The notes under the pieces were generated by a model that saw only the letters and a list, made by a program, of their open reading frames with translations, searched no databases and was not told where the DNA came from. Shown here piece after piece: positions 17,998-43,131 of a stretch of 64,000 nucleotides of DNA. How positions within the stretch are numbered: the stretch's first letter is position 1; each line of letters starts with the position of its first letter. The stretch is taken from the NCBI GenBank assembly GCA_021234155.1, contig JAJEKV010000096.1, positions 3,843,678-3,907,677 on the forward strand, written 5' to 3'. The DNA comes from Isoetes taiwanensis (Eukaryota > Streptophyta > Lycopodiopsida > Isoetales > Isoetaceae). The position numbers and the translations under genes were made by a program.

Positions 17998-18839
17998 GAA
18001 ATGATCTTTGTCGCGGCATCGGTGGGTCTCCACCTTGGGATCATCTAACACGCAATCAGCGATACATCGATAACTACTATAATCCTTACACATTTATTAA
18101 GATTACCTTAAGGTAATATTTTTATGACATTATCACATCATTATATTATGAAACAACTTATCAATTCATAACATCACTAAAAGCGGGTTACTCCATAATT
18201 CACTTAACATGACAATTAAGTTTATCAAAATTTAAAATTAGCTTGGGGTACTCTTCATTTCCTTGCAACACATTCCAACAAAATTTGTGTTGCAAGTCTT
18301 CTTCTTCGACCTCCTTGCCCTCGGAGGCGCTCTATTGGCTGTGGTCGACACTACGTTAGTACCATTTAATTATTAATAAAATTTTGGTTATATGGTGACC
18401 ACCCACCTATCTACATGGATGCATGGCTAATCTCCGTAGGAAGAGGGTGAATCTTCCATTATGGCCCGTGGAAGCGGCGCCTATATGCCTATATGCGCTC
18501 ATGCCTACACCCTAGTTGCCCGGTGTGGAGGATAGGTCCTTCAGGTATATGGGCGTGAAGGGCTGATTCCTCCTATCAAAGCACATATGGGGCTAGAGGT
18601 GCTTTTTATATCGTGCATTCCTCAATGACCTCCCTTTCTCTCGAGGGTGCGTCTGCTTACGTGGGACCAGTAGACTTTCTAATCTACCTTCCACTTCGCC
18701 CAAAGCGAAAATGCGGTCATGCCTACATTGACATTACACCCGCCCTAGAGATCACCAGTAGTGGTCCCATCGCCGGTAACGCGCATGCGACCCATACTAA
18801 GCATAGGTTGCATGCATAGATTAATCTTAACTACACAGA
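17998..18839 (-). other. chromovirus 3' non-coding region
   Basis: Lies between the end of pol and the polypurine tract. No frame or repeat of note; the one plus-strand frame (18613-18819) is not family-like. Confidence 0.5.
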
Positions 18840-20415: not shown

Positions 20416-20896
20416 TTGTGGGTGCAAAATCGGTCTTGGGTAGCAGAAATCACCCGTCCGGACGCCGCTTACAAGTGCTTAAAATCGGTGTGTTTTAAAC
20501 CACGGCGTGCGTGATTGAAATATTGACATGTAGGGTCTTGGCGGCAGATCAAATGGGTGAGAGAATCATGAACATGTTTGGTGCGGAAACATGAATGCAC
20601 GTAGCCCGCCATATTCTGGATGGCGAGGCTAACCCATCTTAATTCAAGCAAAATGGAGGGACTAATTGTTTCCAAAATTGCACGAACGAAATTCAACAAT
20701 TTGCCCTCAACAATTCAACAATACGAGAAATCAGGGATAGATGAAACCCAATTCCTCTCCCGTTCAATTCTGAGCCATTGATGCGACAAAGGAAGAGATC
20801 GAGGCGAGAGATTATATGCTGCAAAAGGTAGCAATGAAGAAGAATTCCCCTTCTAAAGATTAAGCCTTCAAAGGCGAATAAGAAATTGAGGCCCGA

Positions 20897-22881: not shown

Positions 22882-23049
22882 AATTGAAACACTCAAAGGC
22901 ACAAAGAAGATTCAACTTTATCAGACTGTCGTGAGGACTAGACCAAGCAGGCTTGCTCATAGATGCACATCATGTTTACGCTTTCGTTTTGCATGGATCA
23001 TAATTGGGACTCTGCATCAATCTCTGGTAGATTTGGAAAGTGGGAGGTA

Positions 23050-24197
23050 ATGCTTGACTTAAAAACCGAGGAGTTGAGAAGAAAAAAGGAGACTCTTGAA
23101 CAAGCCAATGAATGGATCAGTAATTTGGTAGAGGTAGGTGACAATTTTGCGGTGAATCTTTGAGGTAGACAATTGAGGAGGGTGTGGACTTCTACATCCT
23201 CAAGTGCCTGAGAACCCAAATGCACACTTGAAGATTCATACAAAGATGGATGGGGGCAAAAAATTTGGAGTGCATGAGGTTATCTTAAGTGGATTGTATT
23301 ATCAATTCATGGGTAATTTCAAGTATATGTTGCTCACTAAACAACCAAACCTCAGGTCCCTGACCATGTGGTAAGATATCCTAAAATTGATATGGAAAAA
23401 ATAGAAGGCCTGAGACATATGCAATTTCACAGGAGACCCATGAAAAAATTATGGCCGATCTCCCAATAACAATGTAATTCTTTGACACTTAACCAAATTG
23501 ATGGCATTCTTTTCAAGTGATTTGTTGTTCCGGCACCTAAGCACGTAAGCACACATTTGTATATATATTAATAATAGTGAGGATGCACAAAGGGTGGTGT
23601 GCATGGACACGTACTTTGAAATGAAGATTGAATTGTTGTTTAGAATGTACATTTGTGACATTGGAATAACATTCAATTATTTATTTTGATACCATCACTA
23701 TCCCAACATTCTTGGCAAAATTATATTGTAAAGGCATTTCCTCGATGTGACATGTGTCAATTCAATGGTCGTCTGCAATTATTTAAGCACAGTTGCAATT
23801 AATTGTTACGGCGTGTGAGGTTTTTCATTATCTTGTGGCGCCTAAGCATAGGATTTAAGCACTAGGCCCCTAATCATAGGATTTCAGCTCTTCTTCGCCC
23901 TCCGCTACCGCCTTAAGCCCGAATCCGTTTCAATTAAGCCTCACGCTCGTTTATTTGCAATGGCCTGCATGTGGAAACCAAGCACCAGTATGTGCTTAAA
24001 CAAGTGCGAAGATCGCGGATGTAAAGCTCCATAATACAAGGGGCCTACTTCTTCGAGCGGTTCAGCCGGATTCAAACGGAGACAGAAGATCGAGGAGGAA
24101 GAAAGAAGGTATTATCTTGTTTTGCATTTTTTTGTTTTGTTTTCTTTTTCTAACATTCTTGTTTACGAAGTGGAGGCGGGAAGTGGGGCAGGAAGTG

Positions 24198-24228
<31 letters not shown>

Positions 24229-26580
24229 TGGAAGAAGAAGAGGAATCGAGAAGAAGAAGAAGACAATCGAGGAAGACAATTACGAGGAGGAAGATGGAAG
24301 ATGGAGAGGAAAGGAAGAAGCGGATGAAGAAGAAGAAAAACGGTTTTTGGAATTACATTATGAAGCCCACTAAGAGGCGAGGAGGAGGGTGGAGGAGAAT
24401 GTGTGGAGTGAGCGAAAGCCCTTGAAGACACCCACGAAGACACCCCTTGAAGACACCCCACGATTTCAAAGACACCCCTGTTCAAATACACCCTGTTCAA
24501 ATACACCCACGAAGACCACCCACGATCAAAGACACCCCCACAGGCTGAAGACAGGCACGAAGGCCTTTTTTAATAGAAAAATTTTTGTTAATATACAAAA
24601 ATTTTGTCTCTCACAACTTTCTCTATCTTGTCTCATCTACTTCTTTTCAAACATCACATTTTGTTTTTTCTATTGAGTAAAGAATGAATTCATTTGATGT
24701 TCTTACTTCTATTATCCATGCATGTGGCAAAACATTGAATTCTTATGCAGTCCATATTGCTTGAATGTAGCGGTGCTCACGGCTCAAACCACGAAGCACT
24801 TTAATTAGTTTCGGCCGGTGCTTGTGAGTAAACCTTTGGAATGCAAAACACACATGCAATAAGCGACTATCGTAGCGGTTATATAGCATAACGGTAAAGC
24901 TACGCAAAGCGATCTGAGAACATATATGTTTTCATCTATGAAATGTTATTTTTGTCTATCTATCAAATTTATGAAGTTAATTCTGTGCGTCCATTCGGTT
25001 ACGCTTGAGTGTAGCGATTAACGGTGCTCTAGCTCTTTCATTAGTTTCAAACACTAAGCACTTTAATCACTTTCGGCCGGTGCGGTGAGTAAGCCTTTGG
25101 AACACCACGAGCACTTATGCAATAAGCGGCTACCTTTAAGCGGTTATATGGCTTAGCAATAAACCGCGCACCTTACATGCATGCCGGTAAGCACATGATG
25201 ACATTAAGCAACTACATAAAAGTATCGTCTTTGCAAGACAATAGCGATATATCGCCATTAAGACTCAAACCATAGCACTTTTTTTTTTTTTTTTTTTTTA
25301 AGCACTTGATAAGTTTTAAGCATCCCTTTCGGTCGGCATTGAAGTATATAGAAACAATATAGCAAAAACTTATAGACAAGTCGCATTGAACTACATAAAC
25401 AATATAGCAATAACATTCTTAAATTAAGATAAAGATGGTACATGAAAAGTGTAGGATTCCTTGGCCTAAATAAATGACAAACGGACCAATAATCATGGAG
25501 AATGACAAAGCGTCATCACCATAAACCTTCTCAATTCCTTCTTCACAAACTGCAGAGCTGCAAATTTGTTTTCGAGAAAGTCTTTCAAGCATAGCTTCAT
25601 AATCTTTCTATCTGTCTTAGGCCAAGGCTTGTATCTATGTGTATTCTTCACGGTGACTTCATTTCTTCCTCGGTCTTGGCACTGATATTTCTTCTATCTT
25701 TGGGGTGAGTCTTTGGAAGCACTTCATCATGGACATCCATCTTGAATGCAGTACCATGAGAAATTTCGAGGGGCTGCTAAGGTAAGACTTGTACAATGAA
25801 TCATCAAGAAGCAAAAGTCTTACCCGGTGAATCTTAGGTATGACTCATATATTTTCCCAAGTGGCTTCATCATATTTGGACAGCCGGGTTTGTTAGGGTG
25901 GTGGCAGAGTGCACACATTTTCTCCCCATACAAATTCAAATCTGTCCCTCAAATCACGGACATAGTACTTGCGGCACATCTTCCACATTGGAGAGTTGCA
26001 TTGATGACCATATACCAACCACGACATACGTAACAAAGTCTTCAAGAAGAACTTTGCCGGATGCGAATATCACTTTCTTTACGCTAGTGTATGTCATTGT
26101 CAATCACCTTCCAAGCGTATGTGTTCATTTGCACCAAATGTTTTTACCAACACACCATTTAAATCCAAGACAATGAGTTTATCTTTGGGTGGCAAATCAA
26201 TATTTAATGCGTTGGAACATCACGAATACCTACACAACGGGAATTACTACATGAATAAATAGATGAAGATGAAAATGAAAAATGGGTTGAATGTGGAAAC
26301 CTTTACGTATCAACGGCGAGGATTCTCGACCTAACGAGAATGAGGCTGGTAATCCTACGATGAATGCAACAAAAGAAAATCAATAATATTCAATGTTTTA
26401 ATCAACATTAAGTTGTGGACTTGCCCAACAATGCCCATACCCCTTTCGAGGGGTTATTAATGGCAGAAATCACTTGTTGAAGATCGGGGCTCACGAACCT
26501 TGAGGGGGCGATTACGCATTTTCTTCAGAACACGCCGATATTTGTGGTGTCATGATTGAGGGGCGCTTCCGCATCTTTTG
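23050..26580. other. transposon interior, mostly non-coding
   Basis: No family-like frame. It includes a purine GAA/GAG-rich run (24165-24400) that gives artificial Glu/Arg-rich frames, a CACCC-GAAGA simple-repeat block (24425-24545), a poly-T run (25278-25301), and a roughly 140-bp direct repeat at about 24763-24900 and 25012-25150 marked by TTTCGGCCGGTG and by AATAAGCG with GGTTATAT. Confidence 0.55.
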
Positions 26581-26589
26581 CATAGCTAC

Positions 26590-28150
26590 TTCTTGTTCTC
26601 TTTCTTGTAGCCTGAACAACTACTTTGCTATCCTCCGGCTTACCCCTCTTTGTTCTTACGCCCTTTCCTTTACGCAAATATTCAGCCAAGTTGCCCTCAT
26701 CCAGATGGAATTACTCCCTCAACTTCCTTAGGTGCTTGATTGTGGCCTGTCAGGTCGTTTGTTCTTTCCTGGCCCGGTGTTGTGTTCTGGCTTCTTCTAT
26801 AGCTTCTTGGGCTGACTTCTTGGGTGGTGGTGGTGGGTTCTGTTTGTTGCAATCAAATCGATCACAATTATTGGTACTCCTATAGGACTTCGCGGTGTTG
26901 TGCATCTTCAAATGGCACCATTGTCCTTCTTTGAACCCTCAGCGGTGAGACCTCAATTGCGGGGCCGGATTAACACATCCTTTTTTTGGTGTACTATTTG
27001 AAGCACACGCAACATGGCCAAAACCTAGCTCGTCAAATACACCCTCGGCACCTTTCGGGCAACCATGAATACATTGTCCTCCTCTCAACAATGAACAACA
27101 AGCTATATGATACTCATGTTGGCAATTCGATTGCTAAACTTAACTTTTGTAAGCTTTAGTGAATTCGGACCACATGCGAACATGTATAAAATGAATCTTC
27201 CACTAGCAACTTATCTCGTATAATAGTAGAGATGCTAAATGTTTTGAGGAGTATCCATTTTCACTTCCACAAATTGTTTATGTAGAAATGCGAGGAGTCT
27301 CTGTTCTTCTTGAGAACTTTTAACTCCTCCTCAAGTTTGAGTTCACGTTTGACTGCTCATTAACAGATGTAGGGTTCATTGCTTTTTTGTACCTTGTTCT
27401 GTGCCAAGTTTCCATCGAGATGGTCTGCTCCAAATCTTTAATTTCGCCTCCAACTCACATGTTGGATTAAGCGAACTCCTCTCTTTTTGTAGCCAAATCA
27501 TTTGTGGCTGTCTTAAAGCTGTTTTTCAGCCTCTTCCAACATCATTTTACGTAATTGAGGAGGCCTTCTCATTGCCTTTCAGCTCACTTCCCTCTTTGCT
27601 TCCAGATTCTTTGTGATAAGTAAAACCGATTTTCCAATCTCATCTTTGCATTCTCTAAGGTTTTATGTTTTTCATCACATGCTGACCTCATTTGATCATT
27701 TTGCCACCTTTGGCTTTGCCTTCATTTTAGTTTTTCTAACATGTGCTACAACATCACGCCTCTGTTTTACTTGTCTATTGTTGTGGTATCTTTGACATTA
27801 CCGCGACAAATGCAGCCCAGTTTACTTTGTGTTCCTCGGGTGCAAGTATTGATCTAGTGCAATTTTCAAGCGCCAAAAGCAAAGGGGCCGGTTGCTTTCT
27901 TACTTCTTTGTTGTGACAATTCTTGTAGATTTACCGGTGAGTATTTCCAACTTCTCTTGAAGATGCTCCTTTGCCACGGTGCCATTTTATCTTTCCCTTG
28001 TTCAACTTCTTTGTCCAAGCAGAATCCCAATCTCGATCCGTGACATTATTTTCCAACCAAGCTTCTTCCTCGTGGGGCTTCACCCCGAATTACCTGAACC
28101 TCGATGGTGTGAAAATCATCCCGCTCCATGCCTCCATCGTCAGCGAGGTG
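26590..28150 (-). pseudogene. decayed minus-strand frame in the transposon, unknown product
   Basis: Minus-strand translation gives long stop-poor stretches. Near 27930-28080 it reads KPHEEEAWLENNVTDRDWDS then AWTKKLNKGKIKWHRGKG. Near 27800-27910 it reads NKEVRKQPAPLLLALENCTR and SILAPEEHKVNWAAFVAV. Near 26640-26880 it reads CDRFDCNKQNPPPPPKKSAQ then EAIEEARTQHRARKEQT. The composition is charged and helical. It could be a second transposon protein or the distal part of one split gene. I recognise no family. Stops and frameshifts interrupt it. Confidence 0.35.
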
Positions 28151-28287
28151 AAACAACGATCTGAGTTTTCGCGCCCGGGGAAAAGGAGGGAGAAGGGCGT
28201 GGCGAGGCTTCGGCGTCGCGAAGTTTCAGCACTTAAAGTGCTTAAACGCTTCGCCAAAAAGTTTACCCCACTAGCGATTTTACACCC

Positions 28288-28536
28288 TTGTAGACTATAT
28301 CAAAGTCGTACTCTTCAAGGAACTCCATCCACCTTCTCTGCCTCGGGTTGAGGGTGTGGTTCGCGTGAATACATATTGGAGGCTCGGTGGTCTGCAGTAT
28401 CCAAGCTGGAACTTCCTTCCCAAAAGGTAGTGCCTCCAAATTCTTAATGCCCTGACAACCGCAAGCAATTTCTGATCGTGCGTGGGGTAGCGCGTTTCGG
28501 CGTCGTTCATCTTCCTGGAATCATACGCTACCACAC
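28288..28536 (-). pseudogene. chromovirus RNase H
   Basis: RNase H removes the RNA template during reverse transcription. The minus frame reads VVAYDSRKMNDAETRYPTHD then QKLLAVVRALRIWRHYLLG, the usual chromovirus RNase H block. In another frame LQYVFT and WMEFLEEYDFDIVYK follow, where the 7.9-kb transposon is inserted. The upstream part (AMLMQEER) lies beyond the 3.75-kb element at about 32290-32325. The domain is thus split by two independent insertions plus frameshifts. Confidence 0.88.
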
Positions 28537-29281
28537 AAGTCGTATTTAATTAAAGTGGGACTCATTCCATTCCCACTTTTTTGCGGAACTCTGTTATTTT
28601 ACACAAGAAGGAGCACCCCGACCCGAAAACTGTCCTTAATTCGATTTTTTGACTGTTACTGTGCATCCAAGCTTTCTCCGGTTTTTTGTGGGATAGCGAG
28701 TCGAGTCCCTTTTTTGGGGCTTATTTGTCATCAAAATAAAGAGTTTTTGGCGTGAGGGGTGAATTCCTTTACCATGACATTTTGGCTCTATTTTCTTAGG
28801 TGGGTAGACAAGAGATCACAAATTCCAACAAAAAATAAGCAAATTGTTTACTTAATTACCAAAAAATACTAGTTTTGAGATACCTTATATTTATAAATGG
28901 GCTCATTACAAATATATATTACAGGTGGTGAAGCGACCATAGTGGTCGTATTATCACAATGATTACACCATCTTCACACATGAACCACATAGTGGCTTGG
29001 CGGGTGGAGCTCTGTCAAGTCACGAACAACTTCTGGGGCGATAGAAATTTGTATGAGGAGTTCCTTCATAGGCCACGTGCTTGTATGTCCAAGCGATGTC
29101 ACCACCCTCTTTCGCATCTTTCTTCAATGGGTGGTCTTTTCATTTGCTCCCAAGCATGTACTATCCGGGTCGAGATAATCGCAAAAAAGACAAAATCCGT
29201 TAGTCAAGTGATGCTCACGAGGGCAAAAAATTAAAATAAAACAGGTTCTTAGGGCCATTTTGGAAAATACGGGCTGAGAGC

Positions 29282-29630
29282 CTTTCGACTGTAGTCGAGA
29301 AAGCGGCCTCAAAGCATGAAGTTTTAAGGGTCCGGAAGGCCTTTCGACTCATGAGTTGAAAAGAAGCCCGACTCAACGAAAAACCGCGGAGGTTTAGGGT
29401 GAAGGCCTTTCTCATTCGAGAAAAGGATTTAGGGAGAGGCCTTTCTCGACTCGCTGGTCGAAAAGCGTCAAAAAATGAAGGCCTTTCGAGTAAAAGACAA
29501 TTTCAAACTCGATTTCGCCCAGAAGATTCAAAGAAATCGAGAAAAGTTTTGTGGAAGGGTAGTTGAGAAAGGCATCAAAAGCGAAAATGCAAGTTGAGGG
29601 GCCTTTCGACATTCGCGAGTCAAAAAAGGC
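29282..29630. repeat. array of CCTTTCGACTC hairpins
   Basis: At least five short palindromes built on GGCCTTTCGACTC and its complement: 29282-29303, 29338-29368, 29406-29427, 29439-29465 and 29601-29630, with weaker remnants near 29480. Loops are 3-9 nt. A similar unit (CCTTCTCGACTAG then GTGAGAAAGG) sits at 31684-31710. Repeated inverted motifs are typical of transposase-binding subterminal regions, but these are internal. Confidence 0.65.
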
Positions 29631-30399
29631 ATTTCGAGGTAAAAAAGGGCAATTTCAAAGCTCGAGTCAGGAGAAGGTCGAAAATTGTGGTAGTATAAAA
29701 GTACTAATGTGTGCTAATTAAGGTGTGCTAGTATAAAAATGCTAATGTGTGCTAATACTAATGTGTGCTATTATAAAAACAATTGTTAAATACTAAACTA
29801 TATCATACTAATTTGAAACTTAAAAAGAGGGGAGGGTTGGGGGATTTTGTACATACCTTTGAAAAAAAAAAGAGATTTGGGACAATGCCTAAATGTTCAA
29901 ACTATATCATTTTTTGGTGGTAGGCGGTGGCTCCGATCCCAAAGACCCCTTAAGTGATGGAATATATAGCACCTCGCACTGCATAAAAAAGAGAAGTGGG
30001 GGTGTATAAATAATCGTCAAATTATATATATATTAACATTAATTTTAGATGCATCAAATTGTGGAAGGGCAAAAGAAATGACTAGACCTCTAACTCGTGA
30101 AATGCAAATATTTAATCAACAAGGGAGAAAGTGAGCCACTAGAAAACAACTTGACATCAAATATTGAATTAAAAGGGGAGAACATCAACCAACTAGAAAA
30201 CAACTTCGACAATGCACATGTAAAAATAATAAATTCCATAAACCATGGGCCCTAAACGCTAGTGGGAGAATGTGACCAACAAAAACCAACTTAAATCCCA
30301 ATGGCAGCGTTAATTTTATACTTGTTTTTTTTAAAGTATTTTTAACCCGCTTTTTTTTATACCCGCCATTTTTCCCATGCTTGAAATTCAAAATTTAGT

Positions 30400-31430
30400 G
30401 CGTACCTTTTGAAATCGTGGCGGCTATGGCGAACTCTCAAGAACACCTGCTATGGCATGGGCGGAGCTATTCAAGAACCATTTCTGCTTTGTTATCTTGG
30501 CTATGACGCGAGGCATTTGCATTCAACTTTACTTGCATCTGAATCTACATTACGAATCTACATCACATTTCCGAACTGTGGGGGCAAAATATACCTCTCA
30601 TCGCCATGGCTGGAAGCTCGTGCGCGCCATAGCAGGGCTTTCGACTACCGGTTCGCGGCCTCGCTTCCTTAGACCATCGGCTATTGGCGGCCATAAGTCA
30701 ATCGCCCGGCAAAATGACCATAGCCCAATCCCTAGCGTGAGCGGAAATTTCAACAAAATTACACTTCCTTTTGCTCCATCGGTATCTGCTGGTGCGGATT
30801 GATGGCGGGCGGATTCAATAGCGAGGAGCGGATCGATGTTGGAATTGATGGCGGGGATCTGTTCTTCCGATTTGGTGTCCGGGAGTCTTCTTTCGCATAA
30901 GTTACACATGCGCCTCTATGCCGTTAGCTCTCTTCTCTTTTAGTTCGACCCTCCTTATTTTTACGTAAAAGACATGGAGGACATAGATCTGTGGCATCTG
31001 TGTGAGAATCTTGGGAACTCTGGCCGGATGGTTGGCGAGAGGCTATGGGCTTCTTCCTTTCTTTATTTTTAGCCTCCCATTTCTCTTTTTCTTTAACTTC
31101 TTTCTTCTTTGTGCGAGGAGCGGGGAAGCTTATCGTAGGTTGGAAGCGAGCGGCAATGGCGAATGACTAGATCGCCATTGATCTGGTATACAATGGAAAT
31201 CGGCGAGGAGCAAATTCTAGTTTGAGCTTCCACCAGATCGGTGTGGCAAAATCTGTTGCCAAAATTTAATGGCCCGGACGTCGGATCTGGCTGCGTCGCG
31301 TGAATCGGGCATGGCGATCGCCATGAAATCCACATCTCCGTTCTCGAATCCGCTTTCCGAGGCCAGCGCCGGCGATCAAAATCTGCCCGATGGCTCTGGC
31401 GTTTCAATATTTGATCGAAGCGAGTAGGAG
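30400..31430. other. mixed-composition interior of the TIR element
   Basis: Less AT-rich than its surroundings, with frames on both strands (for example minus 30598-30909 and 31093-31407). They have no recognisable motif. The stretch may be captured host DNA, but nothing supports a named gene. Confidence 0.3.
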
Positions 31431-31861
31431 CATTTTTTTTTTGCCCTCAGCTCGAAGGGGTTTTCCCCAAAGCGATGGCTTTGCATATGGAAATGGGGTT
31501 ACATGTATATTTTGGGGGGCGGGGACCCTTTGGCAAATTTTTGAGCACCGTTTATGCCCTATAATCTGAGAAGCAAAGCTGGCGTCTCACGCCCATCCCT
31601 CGCTCATCCTCATCTTTAAGCTTTTTTTTTTTTAATGTTTGAAATTCCTCATCTTGGTGTTTTTTTGTCTTTGGAATTAGATTGCCTTCTCGACTAGTGG
31701 GTGAGAAAGGTTTATGATGGAGTATTTATTTAATTTAATTTATATTTGATTATTTTATCAATAGATTAATTTAATTTATTATTTAATTAATTATCTAATT
31801 AGCTTAATTAATTATTGATTATATATTAATAATTAATACTTTTTTTTTTGTGGGGGGGGGG

Positions 31862-32222
31862 GGGCTTGCCTGCCCCTCGCTCATCCTTTGCTCCTCCCCC
31901 TCCTCTTTTGCCTCTTTGCTCTCCGCCCCTTCCCTCCCCCTTATCCTTGCCCCCTGCCCCTTCTTCCAACTTATCCCCTTCCCTCTTCAGCGTGTGGCCC
32001 CTCCCTCTTTCTCCTCTTACCCTTCTCCTTATCAAGGTGTGCCCCTCTCCCTCCCCCTCCTCCTTTGCCCTTTTGCTCTCCTCTCCCCTCCTTGCCCTGC
32101 CCCTTCTTCCAACTTATCCTCTTCCCCTCTTCAGCGTGTGGCCCCTCCCTCTTTCTCCTCCTACCCTTCTCCTTATTAAGGTGTGCCCCTCTCCCTCCCT
32201 CTTTTTTTTTTTTTTTTTTTTG
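31862..32222. repeat. CT-rich tandem repeat ending in poly-T
   Basis: A unit of about 140 bp containing CTTCTTCCAACTTATCC, CTCTTCAGCGTGTGG and CTTACCC/CCTACCC-TTCTCCTTAT is present twice (about 31958-32080 and 32101-32200) in a pyrimidine-rich tract that ends in about 20 T. Long Pro/Leu/Ser frames on the plus strand and Arg/Gly frames on the minus strand are by-products of this composition. Confidence 0.75.
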
Positions 32223-32287
32223 TATGAGTCCCATTTTTGGTCCGAGTCCCAAAATTGAGATTTGTCCCACTTCAATTAAATCGACTT

Positions 32288-33480
32288 ACCGCTCTTCTTG
32301 CATAAGCATTGCTCTGTAGCTATCTTACTTGCGTCAATGCTACAAGCTTATCTTTCTCCGGGTCGGGGAGTTAAGGCTAGGCGGTTGTTAAAGCTTCCTT
32401 CAACAATTCAAACCACAGCTTGGGCTTTCTTGTACCAATGCTCTTGCCCAATCTTTCACTTTCTCCGCCCTCGTCAAGTAAATTAGCAGGGGCGCTATCT
32501 TGGCAAAGTTCTTCCACGAACTTCTGTTAGTACCACTGGTAGAAAACCGACTTCATGCACATTCTTGACGGCCAGCGAATAGCGGCTTCAATCTTTCGCG
32601 GGGATCCGTCGAGATGCCTTCTGGCGAGATCACATGACCTAGATACTCCACCTTCTGCATTTGAGTGGTGGCGCCCGACAACTTGGCGTACAACCGGTGC
32701 CTCTTCAACTTCTCGGCCTCTTCTCAAGTGTTGTACATGCTCTTCAAGGGATCTGCTATACACCAAAATGTCATCAAAACAATCACAAAGGTGTCTAAAA
32801 CTCCCACGAAGATGTAGTTCATGAGCCTCATGAGCGTCGTTGGGGCATTCGATAAGCCGAAAAGGCATTACAGTGAACTCATAGTGCCCATACGGCGTTA
32901 GAAGGCGTCTTATGGATATCTTCTTCCTTTATCCTGATCTGATGATAAGCGACCTTAAGTCAATTTTGGAAGATTTTTGCTCCTTGTAGCTGATCCATCA
33001 AGTCATCTGATGCAGGGGGGCGTGATACTTGTTCTTAATGGTGTGCTTGTTCAAGCTGCCTATAGTCTATGCACATCCTTAAAAGCGCCATCCCTTCTTC
33101 TTAACGAAGAGAATGGGCTCCAAATGGCGAAACACTAGGTCTAATGAAACCTAGGTCAAGCAGCTCGCAGCTGCTTCTTTAGCTCAGGCAACTCTGCGTT
33201 GTCATTCTATATGGAGCCTTGCTTTCGTTGGCTTTGTTCGGTTGAGTGCTATCTCACTTTCGACTCCCCTATAAGGAGGGCTGCTTGATCTCATCCGAAA
33301 GAGATCATGGAACTCCGTGATCGGCTTAGCTACTTGCTTGGCAACTGGCGAGCACCTTGTCTTCTTTGCTTCCCGATTTAGGCTCACTAATCTCAAGCGA
33401 GGGATGTATGCCACCTGCTCGCTCTTGATGCGCTTGAGCAGCCTCTTAGAAGGCAATACCGCGCATAATGGGAACAACTT
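32288..33480 (-). pseudogene. chromovirus reverse transcriptase
   Basis: The minus strand reads EFHDLFR at the pol linker (about 33300), then near 33120-33060 FVKKK followed by a degraded DYRQLNKHTIKNKY-like block. At 32868-32700 come MPFRLIECPNDA and the catalytic FDDILVYSRSLEEHVQHL. The distal part with SVFYQWY ends near 32527. These are the standard Ty3/gypsy blocks with the FDD active site kept. Several frameshifts separate them. The enzyme copies element RNA primed by tRNA at the site near 39550. Confidence 0.88.
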
Positions 33481-33900
33481 CTTTGTGATCTCGATGATCT
33501 TGCCGTCGGTGTTGGAAAGGTCACCTTAAAGCTTTCCCTGTCGATGGCGGCCCCTCTTCAGTCCAAGATACTCCATGCCTATGATCAAGTCATACTTGCC
33601 AATGCCCATTACTTCTGCCCCCCCATCACGGATATTAATCCACGGCAAGTCGATGTCGAAGTTAATTCTCTTGCCCGTCGCCTTCTTTGCACCACTTGCT
33701 AAGACAAGCGGGCCTTGGCTTTGACTTTAATGGTTTTCAGCTTCAACATTTGAACCATTAGGGGGATGCAAAGTTATGGCTACTTCACGAGTCTATCAAG
33801 ACTATGAAGGACTTAGTCTTGGCCTTCCCTACTGTGGAAATTACTTTATACTGGCTCTCTGCTTGCTCTGTATCTATTGCGGCAAAGATATGGCACTCAC
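33481..33900 (-). pseudogene. chromovirus aspartic protease
   Basis: The minus strand reads SFIVLIDS-stop-SSHNFASP at about 33770-33820. This is the retropepsin active-site block (LIDSGSSHNF) in which the glycine codon appears as TGA. Further on, KYDLIIGMEYLGLKRG at about 33550-33600 matches the second flap-side block of gypsy proteases. The frame between the two is broken once or twice. The protease would process the Gag-Pol precursor. Confidence 0.75.
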
Positions 33901-35300
33901 CTGAATGTAGTCAGCGGCATTCCTCGCCGTCGTCGTCCGAATGAGCGTCCCAATCTCCCAACTCCGCTAGAGCTGCACTCATGGCGTAAAGGCGGTTTCT
34001 TTGTCCTATGGCCTGTTTGGAAGCACTGGAAACAAAAGCTGCTTTTCTATGCACTCTGCCTCTTTTTCCTTGGGCATCGCACGCAAAAGGATCGCCTTCT
34101 GCTTTGGAGTAGTTTGACCCCTCCTGCTTGTCCTTGAAGGACACCTGCTTCTTCTCCTGCTGTTTCCCCTGGTTTCCACCATGTGGGGCTCTAGTTGGAC
34201 CTGGACTGGCTGCTCTAGGGCTATAGCTTCTTGTCGCCTTGCCTTTATAATGGAAATCACTGCTTTGCACGCCCGCTATTACGAGGTCAGTCCCCGCAAG
34301 CTTATAGCCTTGGACTCAACTTAAATCTTGTCCTAGGGTTTATTGCTCTCCACAAGCTTCGGATCTCCTCATTCAACCCCTCAATATAGCTTTCTCTTTG
34401 CATGCTTCTCTTCCAACTTTGGCACATCTGACCTTAGCCTCATGAATTCCTCGTATATTTTGGACTGATTTGTTTCCCACTGTTGGAGCCTATAGAACTG
34501 CTGCATCATGCTGGACTTATGTTCCCTTGGGACGTAATGGCGCTTGAAGGCTTTAGCAAACTTCCTGAACTTACAAGCATCCCTGCTTAAGCCATGTGCC
34601 TTTGCATAACCCTTCCACCAAATCCGAGCGGCCCCTTTCAAGTTGGCTGTTGCAACTCTGCCTTTGTCTTTATCTTTCATGCCATAAGCATTGCCGTACT
34701 CACTCATTTCGTCCAGCCATGCCTCTGCTTCCAATCGACTGTTCTCCCCAGAAGCTGTTCGATTCAGGGCCTTCCATACATTGCCCAGTGCGGAATCTAC
34801 CTTCTTCTGGTAGCCAGAGGCCCTGGTATCTCTTTGTTATTCCTCTGGGGTGTTCCTCTGCCTTCCCTCTTTAGTGTTCCTTTGCCTTCCATCTGTTTGG
34901 TTCTGGGCCTGCTCTTCTTCTTCCTCGGAGTCGAAGTCTGAGTCTGAGCTTGAGTCGGAAGATTCCGGACTGGAGGATCTCCTTCTCTTGCTCCTCTTCT
35001 TGTCCCTTCACGCTCTCAGGAGCTGATGCTTCAGGCAACGGCGTTGCCCACGAACCCACTCACCTTTGCGGGGACACCAAGGCCTTTATCTGCTCACCGT
35101 CCTCATCACGGGATATCTCCTCCTCAGGGTCATGGGTTCCATTTCTTCAAATAGGTTCCTTGCCGGGGGTGGTCTAGGCGGGGTCTGTTCTTCTCTAAGT
35201 TTTCGCAGTTGTCGTTCCCCTGCGTTTAGGCCTCTAGCTGCATACACAAGTGATTCATGGCTATATGGTTAGTTTTCCTTGTTCTCTTGCATTGTTTATG
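33901..35300 (-). pseudogene. chromovirus gag
   Basis: Gag forms the particle that packages element RNA. A likely start is the ATG near 35300 (MQENKEN). An acidic Ser/Asp/Glu-rich N-terminal segment follows (ESSDSSSDSDFDSEEEEE, about 34920-34970). The retrotransposon gag domain is at 34381-34734 (ARIWWKGYAKAHG, KFAKAFKRHYVPREHKSSMM, IYEEFMRLRSDVP). Near 34020-34060 one frame reads CFQCFQTGH, the first three ligands of a CCHC zinc knuckle, with the last cysteine not seen. Basic segments follow. A few frameshifts are present. The unusually acidic N-terminus is worth noting for a chromovirus. Confidence 0.8.
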
Positions 35301-35419
35301 TTTGTTGGTATAGTTGTGGGGCAAAAATACATCAACGAAACATTTAAAGTGCAACAGAGATTATACTCATATATTATATAATATTTTAGTACAAAAGGTC
35401 TACGGGATCAAGAGTCTAA

Positions 35420-36898
35420 CTAGTCTTGAAATCGTAGGTAAGGCGGGTTGTCCTCAAGGAACTTCTTAACTTGGGCCGTTCCTACCGAAAGTGACCCAAG
35501 TTCACGATGGCGCTTCCGGCGAGCCCCCTGAAGGCTCTCGCCCGGATCTTCCACCACGGATGGGATGTGAGGGGCGGCGGTCACAGCCAATCTTCGCCTG
35601 ACGTCGATGGGGTATGGCGAAGTCGAAGAGGTCGAGTGCCATTGCTCTCTTGACCAAGACAAAGATACTTTCGACATTTTGCCGCTATGCGAGCATGCCC
35701 GCCGAAGCCCGAGAGTGCAATCAACATGAACCTCCTTCCTCCCTCGATCGAGGTTGAACTGCGGGTGTATCACCGCTATTCTCCCATCGGCCCAGCAGTG
35801 GCAAGTAGTACTGGCGACATTGCCGTTGTGTGTCGCGAGAAGCTTCTCCACTTGTCGGCCTCCGCTCTATGTCGCCACTGCATACTCGTCGACCCTATCT
35901 CGGTGAGTTCGATTTTATCCTATTCCTCCTCCTCTTGCGGGGGGTGGTGTTGGGGACTTCGGCATTAGGATGCTCGTGGTTTTCCACGGATCCCCATCTG
36001 TTCTTGGAGGGCGAGGAACTCCTCCTCTGTTGGCAGCCTCCGCCGTCCATCATTTGCCCGATCTCCGCTTTGTAGGCGGATATCGGAGGTCGCTTCCCTG
36101 TGTAGGTGTCGGCTTCTCGACTGACCCCGGAAGTCAGAGACTCGGACGATGAAGTCGTCCATGTCGGTCTACCCTTGATTGGTGGAAGCGATTCATCCAA
36201 TCGAGCTCCCTCTCCCCTGCATTAGGGAAGGTTACGGATGTGTTGAGGAGTAGATACTCCTCTCGTTGATGATGATAGGGGCTAGGCTTGTGATGCCTAG
36301 CCCGAGTGGGAAACAACTTTCGATGCCTCGCCTCCATTTCGAAGTTGATCAGCTCCTACTACGCTTGGCGCCGTTCTTCATCACGAGTCGAGCTCCAGGT
36401 GTATTCCTCGTCATCCTCCTCTTCTTCTTCCTTTACTTCTTGCTCACGCTATCTTTGCGAAGCATCTACTCTTCTGCTTGGGCTGCTATGGGGTCCACCT
36501 CCATCGGAGGGATAGAGTTGCTCCCATCGGGTTTTATTGTGATGGGACAAGAAATGGCTAGAGGCGGTGTAGGAGAAATACTTGGTCACGTTGGCGCCGG
36601 GACCATGTAGTCGAGTAACCCTGGCGCCTTATTGGTTAAGTACTTGGCGATGTTGGGGACATCACCCAAAGCCTTGAAGGGATTGGCAGGGGGCGAAGTA
36701 TCCTATACAAGGGGGACTGAACAAGGGAGGGCCCTACCCTAGCTTGAAAGTCTGCTAGCACTTGCCTATATCTTTGGTGTTGCATTTAGCGTAGCTTGGA
36801 TGTCAATTTCTTTCCCAAAGACTTGGAAGTGTCGTTGACATCCGCCCGGCAAGATGGGCCCGGCTGATGTACCATCGCCCGAAGTCGGCGGTGGCCAT
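35420..36898 (-). CDS. second extra gene of the chromovirus, unknown function (frameshifted)
   Basis: The start is chosen at the ATG at 36898 (MATADFGRWYISRAHLAGR), about 113 bp after a minus-strand TATA box. The region reads, in several frames, VPNIAKYLTNKAPGLLDYMV (about 36610-36670), an acidic run near 36420, then MDDFIVRVSDFRG with an Arg-rich stretch and LPTEEEFLALQEQMGIRG (35965-36162). A final open block (35420-35851) has EKLLATHNGNVASTTCHCW and KVSLSWSREQW and ends ...LRFQD. I recognise no family and see no histone, SANTA or chromodomain motif. The promoter and leader are duplicated from the H3-like gene next door, so the two are probably co-regulated partners. Confidence 0.45.
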
Positions 36899-37010
36899 TG
36901 ATCTAGCGAAGAAGAGAGTATCAAACGGATGCGAAGCGCCTCGGGGGAGTTGGAAGATCGCCTAAGCAGTTGAGAGCAAACTTGCAGGGTGCTAAATGAG
37001 AAATGGGGAA

Positions 37011-37021
37011 CTTATTTATAG
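37011..37021 (-). promoter_or_regulatory. TATA box of the second extra gene
   Basis: CTATAAATAAG on the minus strand, followed by a leader containing GGCGATCTTCC that is shared with the H3-like gene's leader, and an ATG at 36898. Two palindromes lie upstream at 37205-37271 and 37405-37471. Confidence 0.55.
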
Positions 37022-37204
37022 AATTGGGGGAAACCCTAATTTTTGGATGACCTAGATTTTACTGAGATCAGGTGATTCTGATCTATTAAGGGATGCAATT
37101 GCAAGTTTGAAGACTATTTCTAGGGTTTGAGCATGCTAAGGACAAATAATGAGCCTATTGCAACAATTTGGAGATCATTTGGTGAAGCAAATAAATAGTG
37201 CGAG

Positions 37205-37271
37205 GTCTCCTGCGTTGCGCCCGGACCGATTTTGAGAATCTCATTTTTCATTGGTCGGCGGCGTGTGAGAC
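37205..37271. promoter_or_regulatory. palindrome P1 of the second extra gene
   Basis: A 67-bp imperfect palindrome: outer arms GTCTCCTGCGT / GGCGTGTGAGAC, inner core TTTTGAGAATCTCATTTT. One of four related copies, about 185 bp upstream of the TATA box. Confidence 0.75.
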
Positions 37272-37404
37272 ATGGGTCCCTAATTGGGCTAGGCTTACTC
37301 AATTTAAGTGATCTAAGGCTGTAATTCCACTAAACTCATCGAGTTAGGCAGAATTGACCCCTTATTTGGTCGATTTGGAGCTGTTTTGGGCATTTTTGGG
37401 CATG

Positions 37405-37471
37405 GTCTCACACGTTGCGCCCAGCCCGAAAATGAGAATCTCATTTTCTGTCCTGGCGCGACGTGTGAGAC
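37405..37471. promoter_or_regulatory. palindrome P2 of the second extra gene
   Basis: The clearest copy: GTCTCACACGTTGCGCCCAG pairs with the CTGGCGCGACGTGTGAGAC-type right arm, around the core AAAATGAGAATCTCATTTT. Its start is exactly 200 bp from that of P1. Confidence 0.8.
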
Positions 37472-37629
37472 ATCGTCTCAATTTTGCTCAAAAGCTCCAA
37501 TTTGACTAAAACAAAAGCTAGAATTCTATAACTTAACTTAATTAAGCTAGATCAGACATGTTATTTACTTCCAAAATTCTTTATATTAACAAAATTCTGA
37601 TTATTTACAAAATCTCAAAGGCGTTCTCC

Positions 37630-38898
37630 CTTGATGTGTGAGGCCATTTGCATGTCTGCTTCATGAGGGTGACCCTCTTTCGTGTAACCGTCGCGGTAGA
37701 TGAATCTTCAAAGTCTTTGCACTATTTTTAGCCTCTGGCGCCTCGCGTAAAGCACAACAACATTTCATCCGTCACCGCATGTTTGTATTATACTCTGCAT
37801 GACCTCTCGGACCAAGCGTTGAAAGCGGTGCAGGGGGATCGAGAGTCCGTAGCTCCTCTGGAAGTGCCGGATTTCCTTGAGCGCCCTATTCTCCAGCTTC
37901 TTTCTGCCGGCCCGCTTCTTTCCTGGTGCTCTGGGAGGCTTCGGCTTTGGTGGGGGTGGCTCAGAGTCTGCTTCGCCGCGGGGTACTCCACCTTCAACTG
38001 TCCTCACCCGATGCTCCTGAAAGTAGGCATTGTATGCCTCCCACTTCTCCATATAGGAGTTGTGCTCCCTAATTCTCTTCTGATAGACCTTGACAGGGTC
38101 TATCACATACGCCTCCCGTTGGGGTCGCGGGGCTTTAACCCTATCCCACATCGGAAAGGTGGGGTTTATGGTGTCAGGCCTCTCACGCTCACGTGCTACA
38201 CGCTTTCGGGGCTTCTTCCTCTGACTAGGGGGTTTGAAGAGCTTGCTCCCTCTGCGCCAGGCACGTAGTCTTCATCCGAGTCGTCGGTAGTAGGCGGGGT
38301 CTCTTCGCCTGATGGTTCATTGATGTTGATCCCGTTCACCGCTTGCAGAGCCCTCCGACCTTCCTCTTGCGCCTTAATGGCTTTGGCCTTCCTCTTCTTG
38401 GGCTGGGGGCGAATTAGTCGTCTTCGGAAACTCTTCGTCCTCGGCTCCGTGGCTCTTTAGCTTCATACTGGCGATGAAGCGTGCAAGATCGGCTTCTTAG
38501 GGGCTGAGTGTTGTTGTTTTGCTGCTCTTCTCTTCCTTGTTCTTCTGCGGGTGGGTCGGCCTTTGGGGTTGTTCTGGTACGTTGGTACGTCCGCTTTGCT
38601 CCGTACTCCTCAGGTGGTTGGGCCTCGGCTGGGGTTGCTCTGGCTGTTGATCGCCTGCTCGCGCTCCTGCCGCTCCCGCTTCTTCCCTCCTCTTGTGCGA
38701 TCTCCTCGAGGATTTGGTGCATGATGTCGGCGGCCGTCCTCTATGAGCTCCGTATGGTCGCTCGATCCGATCCGCATCCTCGCTCGAAGAAGATTCATGG
38801 AGAAGGCGTTCGAAGGACTCTCGAAGAGGTAGGGTACCGGTATTTGGAGGATCCGCCGGCTAGGCTTCCTTGCGGTTTGTTTGGTCGCGGGCCATCAT
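37630..38898 (-). CDS. histone H3-like protein gene within the chromovirus (frameshifted)
   Basis: Start at the tandem ATGs at 38898/38895, about 103 bp after a minus-strand TATA box. A long basic, Pro/Arg/Glu-rich N-terminal region of about 300 residues spans several frames (for example 38414-38722 and 37997-38151). The C-terminus is histone H3: at 37787-37917 one frame reads KKRAGRKKLENR, ALKEIRHFQRSYGLSIPL and FQRLVREVMQSI, matching H3 alphaN-alpha1 (ALREIRRYQKS...PFQRLVREI). Beyond a stop, three frames supply ALREAPEA, then FED, KRVTLM and DMQMASHIKGERL, in the H3 alpha2-alpha3-alphaC order (ALQEACEA...FED...KRVTIM...DIQLARRIRGERA). The long divergent tail recalls CENH3, but loop 1 does not decide it. 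The breaks may be decay or consensus error. Confidence 0.8.
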
Positions 38899-39000
38899 TT
38901 TCTGGTTTGTCGATCGGAGACTAAAGCGCCCGGAAGATCGCCTTTGTAAGCACGCGAGCAAAGTTCTAAGGAAGAACACGAAAATGGGAGGGGTCTAGGT

Positions 39001-39010
39001 CTATTTATAG
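39001..39010 (-). promoter_or_regulatory. TATA box of the H3-like gene
   Basis: CTATAAATAG on the minus strand. The leader that follows shares GGCGATCTTCC and nearby GAGCAAA-type text with the second gene's leader, which indicates a duplicated promoter plus 5' UTR. The ATG is at 38898. Confidence 0.55.
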
Positions 39011-39087
39011 GGGCCAATTTTTAGGTCAACTTTTAACTACCTTTTGGGTTGCCTAAAGCATCTAAAACACCTAATTAAGCAGAAAAG

Positions 39088-39156
39088 GCCTCACCGCGTT
39101 CGCCCAGCCCAAAAATGAAAAAGTCATTTCCTGTCACCGGGCGCGACGTGTGAGAC
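39088..39156. promoter_or_regulatory. palindrome P1 of the H3-like gene
   Basis: Outer arms GCCTCACCGCGTTCGCCCAG and GGGCGCGACGTGTGAGAC, with core AAAATGAAAAAGTCATTT. It lies about 80 bp upstream of the TATA box and is one of four related copies. Confidence 0.75.
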
Positions 39157-39295
39157 ATGGTGGGGCCCACTACTAAATTTTGTACTTTTTTGAACATGTA
39201 ACATGCTAAGTCTACTGATTCTTAGCTTAAAATTAGAATTATCAAGTTATTTCACTTTGTAGTTTACAACTTTTTTGGTGCCTAAAATGTTGAAT

Positions 39296-39358
39296 GTCTC
39301 ACGCACGTTAGCCCGGCAAAATGAAAATGTCATTTTTCGTCTGGGCGGCGTGTGAGAC
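39296..39358. promoter_or_regulatory. palindrome P2 of the H3-like gene
   Basis: Outer arms GTCTCACGCACGTTAGCCC and GGGCGGCGTGTGAGAC around core AAAATGAAAATGTCATTTT. It starts 208 bp from P1, repeating the about 200-bp spacing seen at the other gene. Confidence 0.75.
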
Positions 39359-39542
39359 CACCTACCACGGATGTTGGCTCACCAATTTTAGTCTTTTAAC
39401 GTTTTTATTCATTTTAGCATTACTAGCTTAGCATAACTACAAAAATGAGAAAAAAATTTCCCATTTTTCGAGGTTTAAAGATCCTATCAAGTTAGTGCTC
39501 TTTTTGGGAACATGGCGCTGCTTTGCTCTTGGTTTCCAAGAA

Positions 39543-39557
39543 CATAGCTCGATACCT
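39543..39557 (-). promoter_or_regulatory. primer-binding site (initiator Met tRNA type)
   Basis: Directly after the minus-strand end of the 5' LTR the sequence reads AGGTATCGAGCTATG. The usual plant initiator-methionine PBS is TGGTATCAGAGC, so this copy is degraded by one substitution and one missing base. Its place confirms the element's orientation and that the two extra genes lie between PBS and gag. Confidence 0.65.
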
Positions 39558-42500
39558 TGTGGGCGTCCCCTACTCATTATCACGGTGCACTCACCGTATA
39601 CAAAACAGAGAGTTCATCCCCATACCAGCTCCATGCTAATACTGAGGGCCCCTTCACATGACACCGCAACCGTGGACGGTGCGGTGGGAAGAGTGAAGGG
39701 GTCATTGCACCCCGCCTCCCTCGGGGCCTACCTAGGCTGCTTGAAGCGTAAACATACATGTCGAGCACATACATCAACATCATCATATGACCATCACGAA
39801 GGATGGTCCTCCACATATCTGCATCGACAAAGATCAAGCACATCACATAGGGAATCCTACCCAAGGCTCGGACTCAAAGGGATGACCGACGGCTTGGGTC
39901 TCGAGTTCATTGCAAAGCGAGAATTCATGGCAATGGATTTGGGTGGCATATGAACATGGCTTAGGGTTGTCCACTCCATCCAGCCCCTCCTTGTGCACAC
40001 TTTGCGAGTGGGCTGAAAAGTGTCGGGGACTGGATCAGAGCTCACCGGATGCATAGCCAAAAGGGCTATTCACGGGCTCATCCTCCCGATTCCGATGGGG
40101 GGGTAGGGATCACTCCCCTCCGAGATCTACATGCGACTCAAGGTGACTAGAGGGCCTTTGCACGTATCCGAAATTTGGACCCGGGAAAGTGAACACCACT
40201 TCACGGGTGTCGAGCCCATGCCTTGCCCACACGCAGCGGCAAGCCATTGGACCTAGTCACAATGATCCCCAGGGCTTTACACACCAGGAGGGATCGTTCA
40301 AGAGTCAGGACATGAACCTCTTTCTCGCCCGGTCGGCCCTTCACCCACATCCCGGTCGGCTCTTGTGCACAAGCCGAATCCACGGTGTGCTAGAGGCTAC
40401 TCTAGGAGCATCAACTTCAAGGCTTTAGGTCTCTACCCCCTTCCCAATACAAAGGAGTTCATAGAGATACATCATCCATATACTTCACAGAGAACTAAAG
40501 AACTAGATCTAATCTACAACATAGAGTTAGGTTCTTTAGTTAGAATCTGCTATCTAGAGATCTAGAGAGCTGCTATGGGCAATCTAAGAGGCTAAACCTA
40601 CTGATTCTATGACTGAAATAGGGTTTAGACTATCTAATTGGCTCAATACCTGATCCTTGAGGGGCTCCTTCTGACCTGAGCTCGACCATCCTGCTGAAAC
40701 GCTCGAATCAAGGGAAACTAAGGATGCAATTCTCCCAGGCAGAGTCTGGGAGGCGGTTTTGGCTGTTGAGGCAGCCAAAACAGAGTTCTAAAACCTGTTG
40801 CCCCTTGAAGTGGCAACATGAAGAAAAGATGAAGATATGAAGAAAATTCTAAGTATTGGAGGAGCTATTAAGGAAAGGTATCAGGCTGAAAGAGAATCTA
40901 GGCCAGGTGAGCACCCTTGCCAAATCCTTTAGCCAAAACTAGCCACCCTTGATTTTTCCCAAATTTTTTGAGCCTATCTCCTATTTTTCCTTGAATTTCC
41001 CCTATCGCTGGCCAAATATTCCCCAAAAATGCCTAAAAATCTATACCTTTGCCAAGTGGCATCCTAGTCATCATCCTAAAGTACCAAAGATGTCAAAAAG
41101 TCAAGTGAAAGTCAAAATAGAAAGTCAAAAGGCACACTTTCCAAAAAATACCCTTGCCACGTCATCAAGAGTCAAAATGCCACCTAGGATGGCCACCTTG
41201 CTCACCAAAATGCTTTGTCATCCAACTTTGGTTATATCTTTGCCACTTGGGTCAAAATCATGCCACCTCATCAAAAAATATCAAGGGGCATTTAAAAGAA
41301 AATCCACTTGGGCAAAAAGCCATGTTTGACCTTGCCACATCATCCTCCATTATGCCAAGTCATCATTATACCATGTCCAGTCACCATTGATTCACCTTTT
41401 TTTAGCCAAAAAATCAAAGTGCCATTTTTCAAAACTTGACCACATCACCATGTTGCCCCAATGAAAATATGCCACCTGGCACAAAAAATTTCCAAAAAGA
41501 CCTTATATAGACCTTTGAATTCCAATTCTTGGGAATCGTGCCCTTTGAAAAAAATATAAAAAAATTGTCCTATTCTACCCCCGACCTAGATTCCTTTTCA
41601 CCAATCCCCCCCCCGTGGCTCACCCGGGCGTGGGGCGGTGGAGAATACCGAATCCCGTGGGCAAGACCGTCAATTTAATAGTTAGCCCGGATCGAGCTAT
41701 ATATACCTGGGCTGACTTTTTGATTTAGGCCTGTGGGATATATCCACTGAAGAAGATCTGGCAAAAAAACCATTAGGGTTCTATGATTCTCGGCTTCCCG
41801 CGCACTTTGAATGATGCAGAGCAGTTCGCCTGATCATAACCGACTTCTGGAACCAATCGAATTATGAAAAGGATGCCGAATTAATGGAGATCATACCAAG
41901 AACAGAGCATTGCCTATTTTTGGGAAAGAAGAGTTCGTGCCCATATGCAGACAAATTAGAGCTCTAACTACCCTGACACAGGTCTATAAAGATGATCCGA
42001 GCCGTATTCCAATTAAGGAGAGGAGATTTTTGATTAGAAACCCGCCCTTGTTCTTGAAAGCAAAGATTTTGGAAGTTCTGATACCAATTCTATTTCAGAG
42101 TGATCGAATGGATTACCTGACAAGTGTATCATGTTCCTAAGATAATCTGAGAAAAGTTTTCTTGAGCAATCCATGGTGTTTCCCCTTTTCTTCAATCGAT
42201 TTCTGAGTGTTTTTTTCAAAAAAATAGTTTTTTCCCATTTTTTATGTGCCAGTCCACTTCTGGCGAACTTTGCCAAGAATTTCCCATCAATCCTGATCAA
42301 CAAATGAGTTGAAATCAATTCAAACTATCTGATATCATCTAGATTTGGCTTAACAAATAGCTATTCTGCCAGGATTTGCTCGTATATTTCATTTGCATTC
42401 AAAGGAAATTTGACTGCATCCCAGAGCTTTTTCTTCAATCATTTTCACCACCTTGTTCCAGAAAACATCCTAGTTATACACCTGCATTCACATATCACCT

Positions 42501-43126
42501 TATTTCCTCACATTTGCACATCTTTTCTCATCCCCTCACCACACATTTGGCTCTCTGCACCCTAAACACAGAATTTGGCAAGTATCTTTTAGAAAATCCC
42601 ACAATTTAGAGATTTGTGCATCACAGTTTTTGCAAGGATTCTGTGAAAGGCAACAAAACCCTAGAATCGAAAATGGGCAAGTTAGGGTTTCCCACCCTAT
42701 ATAGACAAGGGGGTTGGTTAGGGTTTCCAATTATCCCCTTTTGGCATGTGGGATAATTGGCAATGGGCCCACTTGCCTTTAAGGCTAGGTGGCCAAATGT
42801 GCCCACATGGAAATGTGTGCACCCAAATGTGCCCACATGAAAATGTGTGCACATTAATGAATGTGTACATTGGAAAATGTGCACATTAATTGCACCTATG
42901 GGTGTGGCCCACTTGGCATGAAGTGGCCATATGGGAAAATGTGCATCTAAATGAATGTGCACATTGTTTAATGTGCACATTAATAAGTGCGCACTCCTTG
43001 CACGTTGCCCCCTAGGGCTACTAGCCTAGCTACACGTTGGCGTACACGTCAGTCGGGGTGGTGTGTACGCGTGACGAGGCAGTATAGTATACGTCCTGGG
43101 GGCGTATACTGTGCTGGAACGTCACA
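39558..43126 (-). repeat. chromovirus 5' LTR, interrupted by a solo LTR
   Basis: Two pieces, 39558-40795 and 42656-43126 (about 1704 bp without the insert and its target duplication), match the 3' LTR at 16294-17987. The minus-strand TATA box is at 42697-42704. The insert junction at 42655 is about 40 bp downstream of it, close to the expected transcription start. Confidence 0.92.
40796..42655 (+). mobile_element. solo LTR of another retrotransposon family (1860 bp)
   Basis: It starts TGTTGCC, ends GGCAACA (perfect 7-bp terminal inverted repeat), and is flanked by AAACC on both sides (40791-40795, 42656-42660). The uninterrupted 3' LTR of the chromovirus shows the empty site TAAAACCCTAG. The interior has many TGCCAC / CCACTTGG phrases and no internal retroelement genes, as in a solo LTR left by LTR-LTR recombination. 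A plus-strand TATA motif (CTATATATAC, about 41697) suggests plus orientation. The frames at 40949-41390 and 41910-42140 are not gene-like. Confidence 0.9.
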
Positions 43127-43131
43127 AGATG

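Follow-up and report, generated by a model that had tools for sequence, protein, structure and literature searches.

An LTR retrotransposon family of the quillwort Isoetes taiwanensis with an extra open reading frame resembling histone H3

The window analyzed here, i.e., the whole stretch of 64,000 nucleotides from contig JAJEKV010000096.1 of Isoetes taiwanensis, contains a broken-up LTR retrotransposon on the minus strand. Its chromovirus features are the LTR pair, a 5-bp target duplication (CATCT, at 16289-16293 and 43127-43131) and a primer binding site (PBS) of the tRNA-Met type, which is decayed. In window coordinates, the features of the element are these:

16294..43126, minus strand: whole element with nested insertions, a chromovirus-type Ty3/gypsy LTR retrotransposon (LTR pair, target duplication)
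39558..43126, minus strand: 5' LTR (TGTGACG..CACA), with a 1.86-kb insertion at ~40796-42655 (window self-comparison)
39537..39557, minus strand: PBS (limits approximate), matching in decayed form the tRNA-Met type TGGTATCAGAGC, which relatives have intact
37615..38898, minus strand: extra open reading frame (ORF1), decayed, with an H3-like tail, a long insert and an H3 core, interrupted by several frameshifts and stops (frame reading, relatives)
38866..38898, minus strand: decayed H3 N-terminal tail, MARTKQTARK in complete relatives and frameshifted in the window copy (frame reading, relatives)
37615..37887, minus strand: H3 core from alphaN to the C-terminus, in three frames (frame reading, Pfam Histone)
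34297..35007, minus strand: gag (capsid; Retrotrans_gag PF03732, E 4.3e-11 on 34381-34734)
32569..34225, minus strand: protease and reverse transcriptase (RT), decayed (alignment to the proteins of the relative L011)
28287..28534, minus strand: RNase H, with an insertion at ~28.5-32.3 kb between RNase H and RT
18869..20420, minus strand: integrase, with a chromodomain-like tail at ~18.87-18.98 kb and an insertion at ~20.4-28.3 kb between integrase and RNase H
16294..17987, minus strand: 3' LTR (K2P distance from the 5' LTR 0.029, 1633 aligned sites)

The divergence between the LTRs corresponds to 1.1-2.3 My at rates of 1.3e-8 and 6.5e-9. The order gag, protease, RT, RNase H and integrase is intact in L011 and is the same in the window, where insertions break it up. 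As an initial annotation of this DNA had proposed, the H3-like gene lies between the PBS (~39,557) and gag (35.0 kb). The chromodomain-like end of pol claimed there has its basis in an alignment of the window to a single relative, L011, whose Chromo domain is intact; the pol tail of the window copy aligns to this domain but is decayed. Around the H3-like ORF we also found four palindromic units of ~70 nt (TCTCACACG..GCGCC..AAAATGA..), two per side, on the minus strand (39285-39385, 39090-39185, 37390-37490 and 37190-37285), with predicted folding energies of -21 to -45 kcal/mol.

All H3-type blocks of the window copy are on the minus strand, between 38,898 and 37,615, and they occur in the order across three frames that the annotation had described. 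ALKEIRHFQRSYGLSIPLHRFQRLVREV is found inside an open frame of 168 codons (38,271-37,768), and ALREAPEA (from 37,753), KDFEDSSTATVTRKRVTLMK (from 37,718) and ADMQMASHIKGERL followed by a stop (from 37,659) are each in a different frame. The decayed tail, which the annotation had missed, is the start of ORF1 at 38,898. The longest open piece, an ORF of 128 amino acids, matches the Pfam Histone family PF00125 significantly (E 1.6e-7, 32.1 bits, cutoff 26.4), and its best match among histone H3 chains in the PDB has an E value of 1.1e-5; therefore, the similarity is not due to chance, an explanation that the relatives described below exclude as well. A protein database search with pieces of the window gave 6086 candidates, none at E <= 0.001, and a second one gave seven, none at E <= 0.01.

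We searched the I. taiwanensis assembly (1,658,258,908 bases in 1110 contigs) for further copies. At the DNA level, the window ORF had 40 scored places among 1565 first-look candidates, the window itself included, which leaves at least 39 other relatives, 14 of which are 75-86% identical to it in one piece that spans almost all of the 1,283 bp, while the others are partial or two-piece matches. When the protein of an intact relative was the query, 96 places were scored, its own among them, out of 13,970 candidates, and by manual count the main matched stretch is free of stops in 66 of these; intact ORF1 frames of ~400-460 amino acids are numerous in the assembly. The H3 piece is thus shared by other family members, and its insertion into a single copy is ruled out by the DNA and protein relatives across the assembly. 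Since intact relatives match H3 (with HMMER, the best E value of L058 against PDB H3 chains is 1.3e-29, over H3 residues ~7 to 134), the H3-like similarity of the window copy is real. Together, the HMM match and the multicopy family support the earlier reading of a retroelement family with its own H3 gene, of which the window copy is a dead, decayed member, the extra ORF encoding what we predict to be an H3 variant.

A search of the assembly with the Pfam Histone model scored 150 places among 8705. Scores typical of canonical H3 were obtained for the top 15, and seven of the eight that were fetched were read, all of them being canonical. In the other 135, it is mainly the core that is matched, and many are in frames of 300-494 codons. 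We fetched 40 of the 135, picked for long frames, a choice of loci that favors conserved copies, and found in all 40 a full H3 core behind an extension; these constitute a sister clade to that of the window copy (the window clade). The Pfam Histone scores of five sister-clade ORFs scanned are 141-151 bits. When the protein database was searched with an intact sister-clade ORF, 7938 candidates were scored, and 4456 of them were hits. Eight gene models were read among the best 120 of these, and each contains at least two H3 copies; none of the best 120 has the N-terminal extension of the sister clade by BLAST, while weaker relatives could exist below rank 120. In IMG/VR, 27 pattern matches included no relative.

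The sister clade provides the element context. In 16 of 20 longer stretches, the PBS TGGTATCAGAGC (with at most one mismatch) is found upstream of the ORF, preceded by an LTR whose end is of the GGGAGCGTCACA type, and in these 16 copies the leader from PBS to ORF measures 596-761 nt, so that a forward ORF between PBS and gag, as in chromoviruses with 5' extra ORFs, is present. The annotation had also assigned the gene its own TATA box; a TATA-like motif does exist in the window near 39,010, but the trait is inconsistent: of the 16 sister-clade copies that have a PBS, nine contain TATA[AT]A in the leader. In eight of the 20 sister-clade leaders, the longest inverted repeat has an interior of 47-49 nt. 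Downstream of ORF1, a Pfam scan of L011 detected capsid, RVP_2, RVT_1, RNase H, H2C2, integrase and Chromo (PF00385, 32.9 bits, in this one relative scanned); because it has the Chromo domain and the full set of gag-pol domains, L011 is a chromovirus. The window-clade relatives were read over the ORF1 stretch, and the LTR and gag-pol context of this clade is known from the window copy.

Another gene found in the sister clade is a second extra ORF between ORF1 and gag (PTLQQWYLDGEHWDP..), open over at least 250 codons in 12 of the 20 stretches (L009-L028) and 443-465 amino acids long in three complete copies. The one protein tested has no Pfam family, its AlphaFold model is poor, and in the window no trace of the ORF rises above shuffles.

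We read 18 window-clade loci, 10 of which have a complete ORF1. All 10 start with MARTKQTARK (H3 residues 1-9 after the Met), a count to be read with the fact that L059-L066 were picked for an intact match reaching the start, which favors intact tails; the first ten codons of these ORFs show synonymous differences only. Among the eight broken loci, MARTKQTARK is present in another frame in L056 and L057, and a variant of it in L055. In all 10 complete copies, K9 is followed by P instead of S, and the ~300 residues behind the tail are rich in Gln, Ser and charged amino acids. HMMER aligns the window-clade protein to H3 residues ~7-134 without gaps (VEGGVPPKQ against STGGKAPRKQ). This arrangement is most simply read as an H3 gene into which a long segment was inserted directly behind K9.

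The extension of the sister clade is different, with a predicted folded domain at residues 10-220 (AlphaFold2 pLDDT mostly ~90), while in the one protein modeled the pLDDT is below 50 over most of the H3 part. A Foldseek search with the whole protein had a nucleosomal H3 chain as its best match (81% identity, E 1.1e-3, TM-score 0.27), and this whole-protein query gave no convincing PDB fold for the N-terminal domain. No similarity could be detected between the extension and the insert of the window clade, so the inserts of the two clades need not share a function. Sister-clade proteins start with MPRFK, MARTKGTK or MExxKQ..RKP, most copies that show a start being reduced to MPRFK or MExxKQ; to judge by these sequences, the start looks like a worn H3 tail. 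Sequence comparison therefore places an H3 coding sequence between PBS and gag, with a predicted H3 fold at the C-terminus of the product and, in the window clade, tail residues 1-9 followed by the ~300 extra residues.

Whether the gene had been H3 or CENH3 was left undecided in the annotation. Loop 1 of the ORF1 cores has the length of H3, shorter than in CENH3 sequences, and the tail is ARTKQTARK; hence, we consider the gene to be of the H3 type. The cores are 83-89% (five from the sister clade) and 56-59% (two from the window clade) identical to host H3, compared with 53-69% and 49-53%, respectively, to two CENH3 sequences. A captured CENH3 would agree with the IRHFQ and LLIPRAPF of the window-clade core, which look CENH3-like, and with the midpoint-drawn tree, which puts this clade on a long branch outside canonical H3. 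However, the tail, the length of loop 1 and the greater closeness of the two window-clade proteins to host H3 speak for H3, and we regard a CENH3 origin as very improbable.

In the tree, the sister-clade cores are grouped with a support of 91/81, which falls short of what the program counts as firm, and this group is joined to canonical H3 with 96/93. The window clade is a long branch of its own (100/99). A single capture is favored by the MARTK-like starts, the RKP after the tail and the final GERP common to both clades; two captures are allowed by the unrelated inserts and the long window-clade branch, the tree being compatible with either. The host H3 genes that we read have Y41 and L90 together, unlike the H3.1 of rice and cassava. 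The H3.3 of flowering plants also has Y41 and L90.

Selection was estimated by the NG86 method. Of the 465 pairs formed by 31 sister-clade ORFs, those with a saturated dS number 340 for the N-terminal domain, 266 for the linker and 244 for the H3 core, and the median dN/dS of the unsaturated pairs is 0.10, 0.20 and 0.033 (221 of 465 pairs for the core), respectively. In the window clade (nine ORFs, 36 pairs; L062 was dropped because its frame is partly shifted), the tail has a dN of 0 against a pS of 0.54, and dN/dS is 0.045 in the core and 0.08-0.22 in the other regions. None of the nine tail codons differs in its amino acid among the nine copies, while seven differ in the codon used; elsewhere, nine of 297 nine-codon windows are equally conserved, six of them in the H3 core and the other three, which overlap, in a single stretch preceding the core. 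Purifying selection acts on both the tail and the core. When six elements were compared directly, dN/dS was 0.044 for the H3 core (with a saturated, capped pS of 0.82) and 0.037 for RT, so the core is constrained about as strongly as a needed enzyme; the value for the capsid is 0.019 (11 elements).

Plant LTR elements are known to capture genes (PMC7264820), and the ORF could be a host H3 gene captured once and merely carried along. This passenger reading is contradicted by dN/dS, since tail and core are under strong purifying selection across diverged copies, and many frames are open despite deep divergence; we give it an extremely low probability. Among L011, L022, L023, L025, L026 and L028, the H3 core has a median pS of 0.82 and RT one of 0.46, a difference that hints at different histories of ORF1 and pol and suggests the exchange of modules between elements.

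By inspection, interface residues of H3 are conserved. In H3 numbering, C110, H113, D123, L126, I130, R69, R72, R83, K115, R116 and T118 are invariant in 29 sister-clade proteins, and the same 11 residues are kept in 10 window-clade cores, except for K at 83 and Q at 113 in L064. Other positions have changed. In the window clade, R63 is replaced by P and K79 by N, and H3K27 is aligned to P; in the sister clade, K36 is replaced by R and EDTN by [SG]DAN. The window-clade cores have diverged to a degree that normal nucleosomes may not form.

Considering these data, it seems likely, with a probability of about 0.6, that the ORF1 protein would be used by the element to tether to or mark chromatin. 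We infer that the protein would enter the nucleus, where its core would pair with H4, and perhaps also with histone chaperones, and would thereby fix the insert domain of the element to chromatin. There it could be a landing mark or tether for the integrase-chromodomain complex, or it could supply new copies of the element with nucleosomes poorly modified by the silencing machinery.

Other roles have to be weighed against tethering or marking. An excess of H3 tail, or the replacement of H3 on element DNA, could counteract silencing as a decoy that absorbs or blocks the enzymes and readers acting on H3K4 and H3K9, with no role in integration. Such a decoy would account for the exact conservation of ARTKQTARK in the window clade and for the loss or change of other modifiable sites (K27 and K79 in the window clade, K36 in the sister clade). 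A tail alone would do for this purpose, yet the constraint on the core is close to that on RT; moreover, the P after K9 may weaken the action of some H3K9 enzymes, and most sister-clade copies showing a start have a reduced tail. We therefore consider a decoy possible but, on the whole, unlikely. The H3 core could also be only a nuclear import signal or a mitotic chromatin anchor for Gag or the preintegration complex, with selection on the tail explained by N-terminal processing or stability. In grasses and sunflower, the products of similarly sized 5' extra ORFs of Tekay elements are predicted to be nuclear (PMC11728184), but a simple import signal needs no entire H3 fold at a dN/dS of 0.03-0.05, which makes this role quite improbable.

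A narrower form of the preferred reading, chromatin tethering or marking, is that the element places a self-made H3 variant in host chromatin, where the displayed ARTKQTARK tail or the insert would guide the element's chromodomain integrase like a private address. If true, one element would encode both a chromatin mark and its reader, although we consider this form unlikely. By inspection, the L011 chromodomain has no aromatic residue at the first cage position, which is described as a trait of type II chromodomains (PMC6317226). Because this aromatic is missing, direct reading of methylated K9 is uncertain, and H3K9me reading by the L011 chromodomain would be doubtful.

Tekay-type chromoviruses with 5' extra ORFs (aORF, eORF and ORF0) are well known (PMC11728184, PMC3485330). 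The family described here resembles RIRE3, RIRE8, Retrosat2, FRetro3 and sunflower Tekay group 2, which have an ORF of ~400 amino acids and biased composition upstream of gag-pol (PMC11728184), and the ORF0 of Retrosat2 homologs is more divergent than their gag-pol (PMC3485330), as is ORF1 here. It differs from the Tekay extra ORFs, from which we set it apart by description only, in its lycophyte host, the H3 tail and the complete H3 core. The word "histone" is absent from the texts of PMC11728184 and PMC3485330, and among the full-text literature matches listed, no title or abstract opening mentions an LTR element carrying a histone gene. Giant Gypsy elements of orchids with a captured m6A demethylase domain likewise have a host-type gene as an extra ORF, but the protein and the host are others (PMC9289625).

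The tail 1-9 (in the window clade), the length and fold of the core and the interface residues are as in canonical H3 and H3.3, from which ORF1 differs by the ~300 extra residues after K9, the changed core residues and the fact that it is encoded by a mobile element. Some 5' extra ORFs of grass chromoviruses were reportedly found by Steinbauerova et al., in Genetica in 2011, to be partly similar to histone H3, and were attributed to the capture of a cellular gene. These ORFs reportedly share with ours the chromovirus setting, the 5' position and the H3 similarity, but they are described from grasses only and with partial similarity, whereas here we have the full core, tail 1-9 at the N-terminus, the insertion point, two diverged clades, measured selection and a non-seed plant. 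Since those ORFs are said to resemble H3, this kind of element is probably known, and the statement in the initial annotation that no LTR retrotransposon with such content had been described was too strong; the lycophyte host, the conserved tail, the complete core and the measured selection look new. To our knowledge, mobile elements with a complete core histone under selection are almost undescribed. The copies constitute a natural series of H3 variants with many differences, in which a nine-residue tail and the core are nearly fixed. If the protein enters nucleosomes, a plant retroelement would be altering host chromatin with a histone of its own, and the long-unexplained role of the 5' extra ORFs of chromoviruses would become directly testable.

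Beyond the element, the window contains a cluster of direct repeats at 44465-50399 (98% identical over ~2.1 kb, units of 300 bp being present up to four times), which by eye seems to hold copia-type pol fragments. Further Ty3/gypsy-like pol fragments (RT, RNase H and integrase, found by tblastn with the L011 proteins) are located on the plus strand at 54402-56859.
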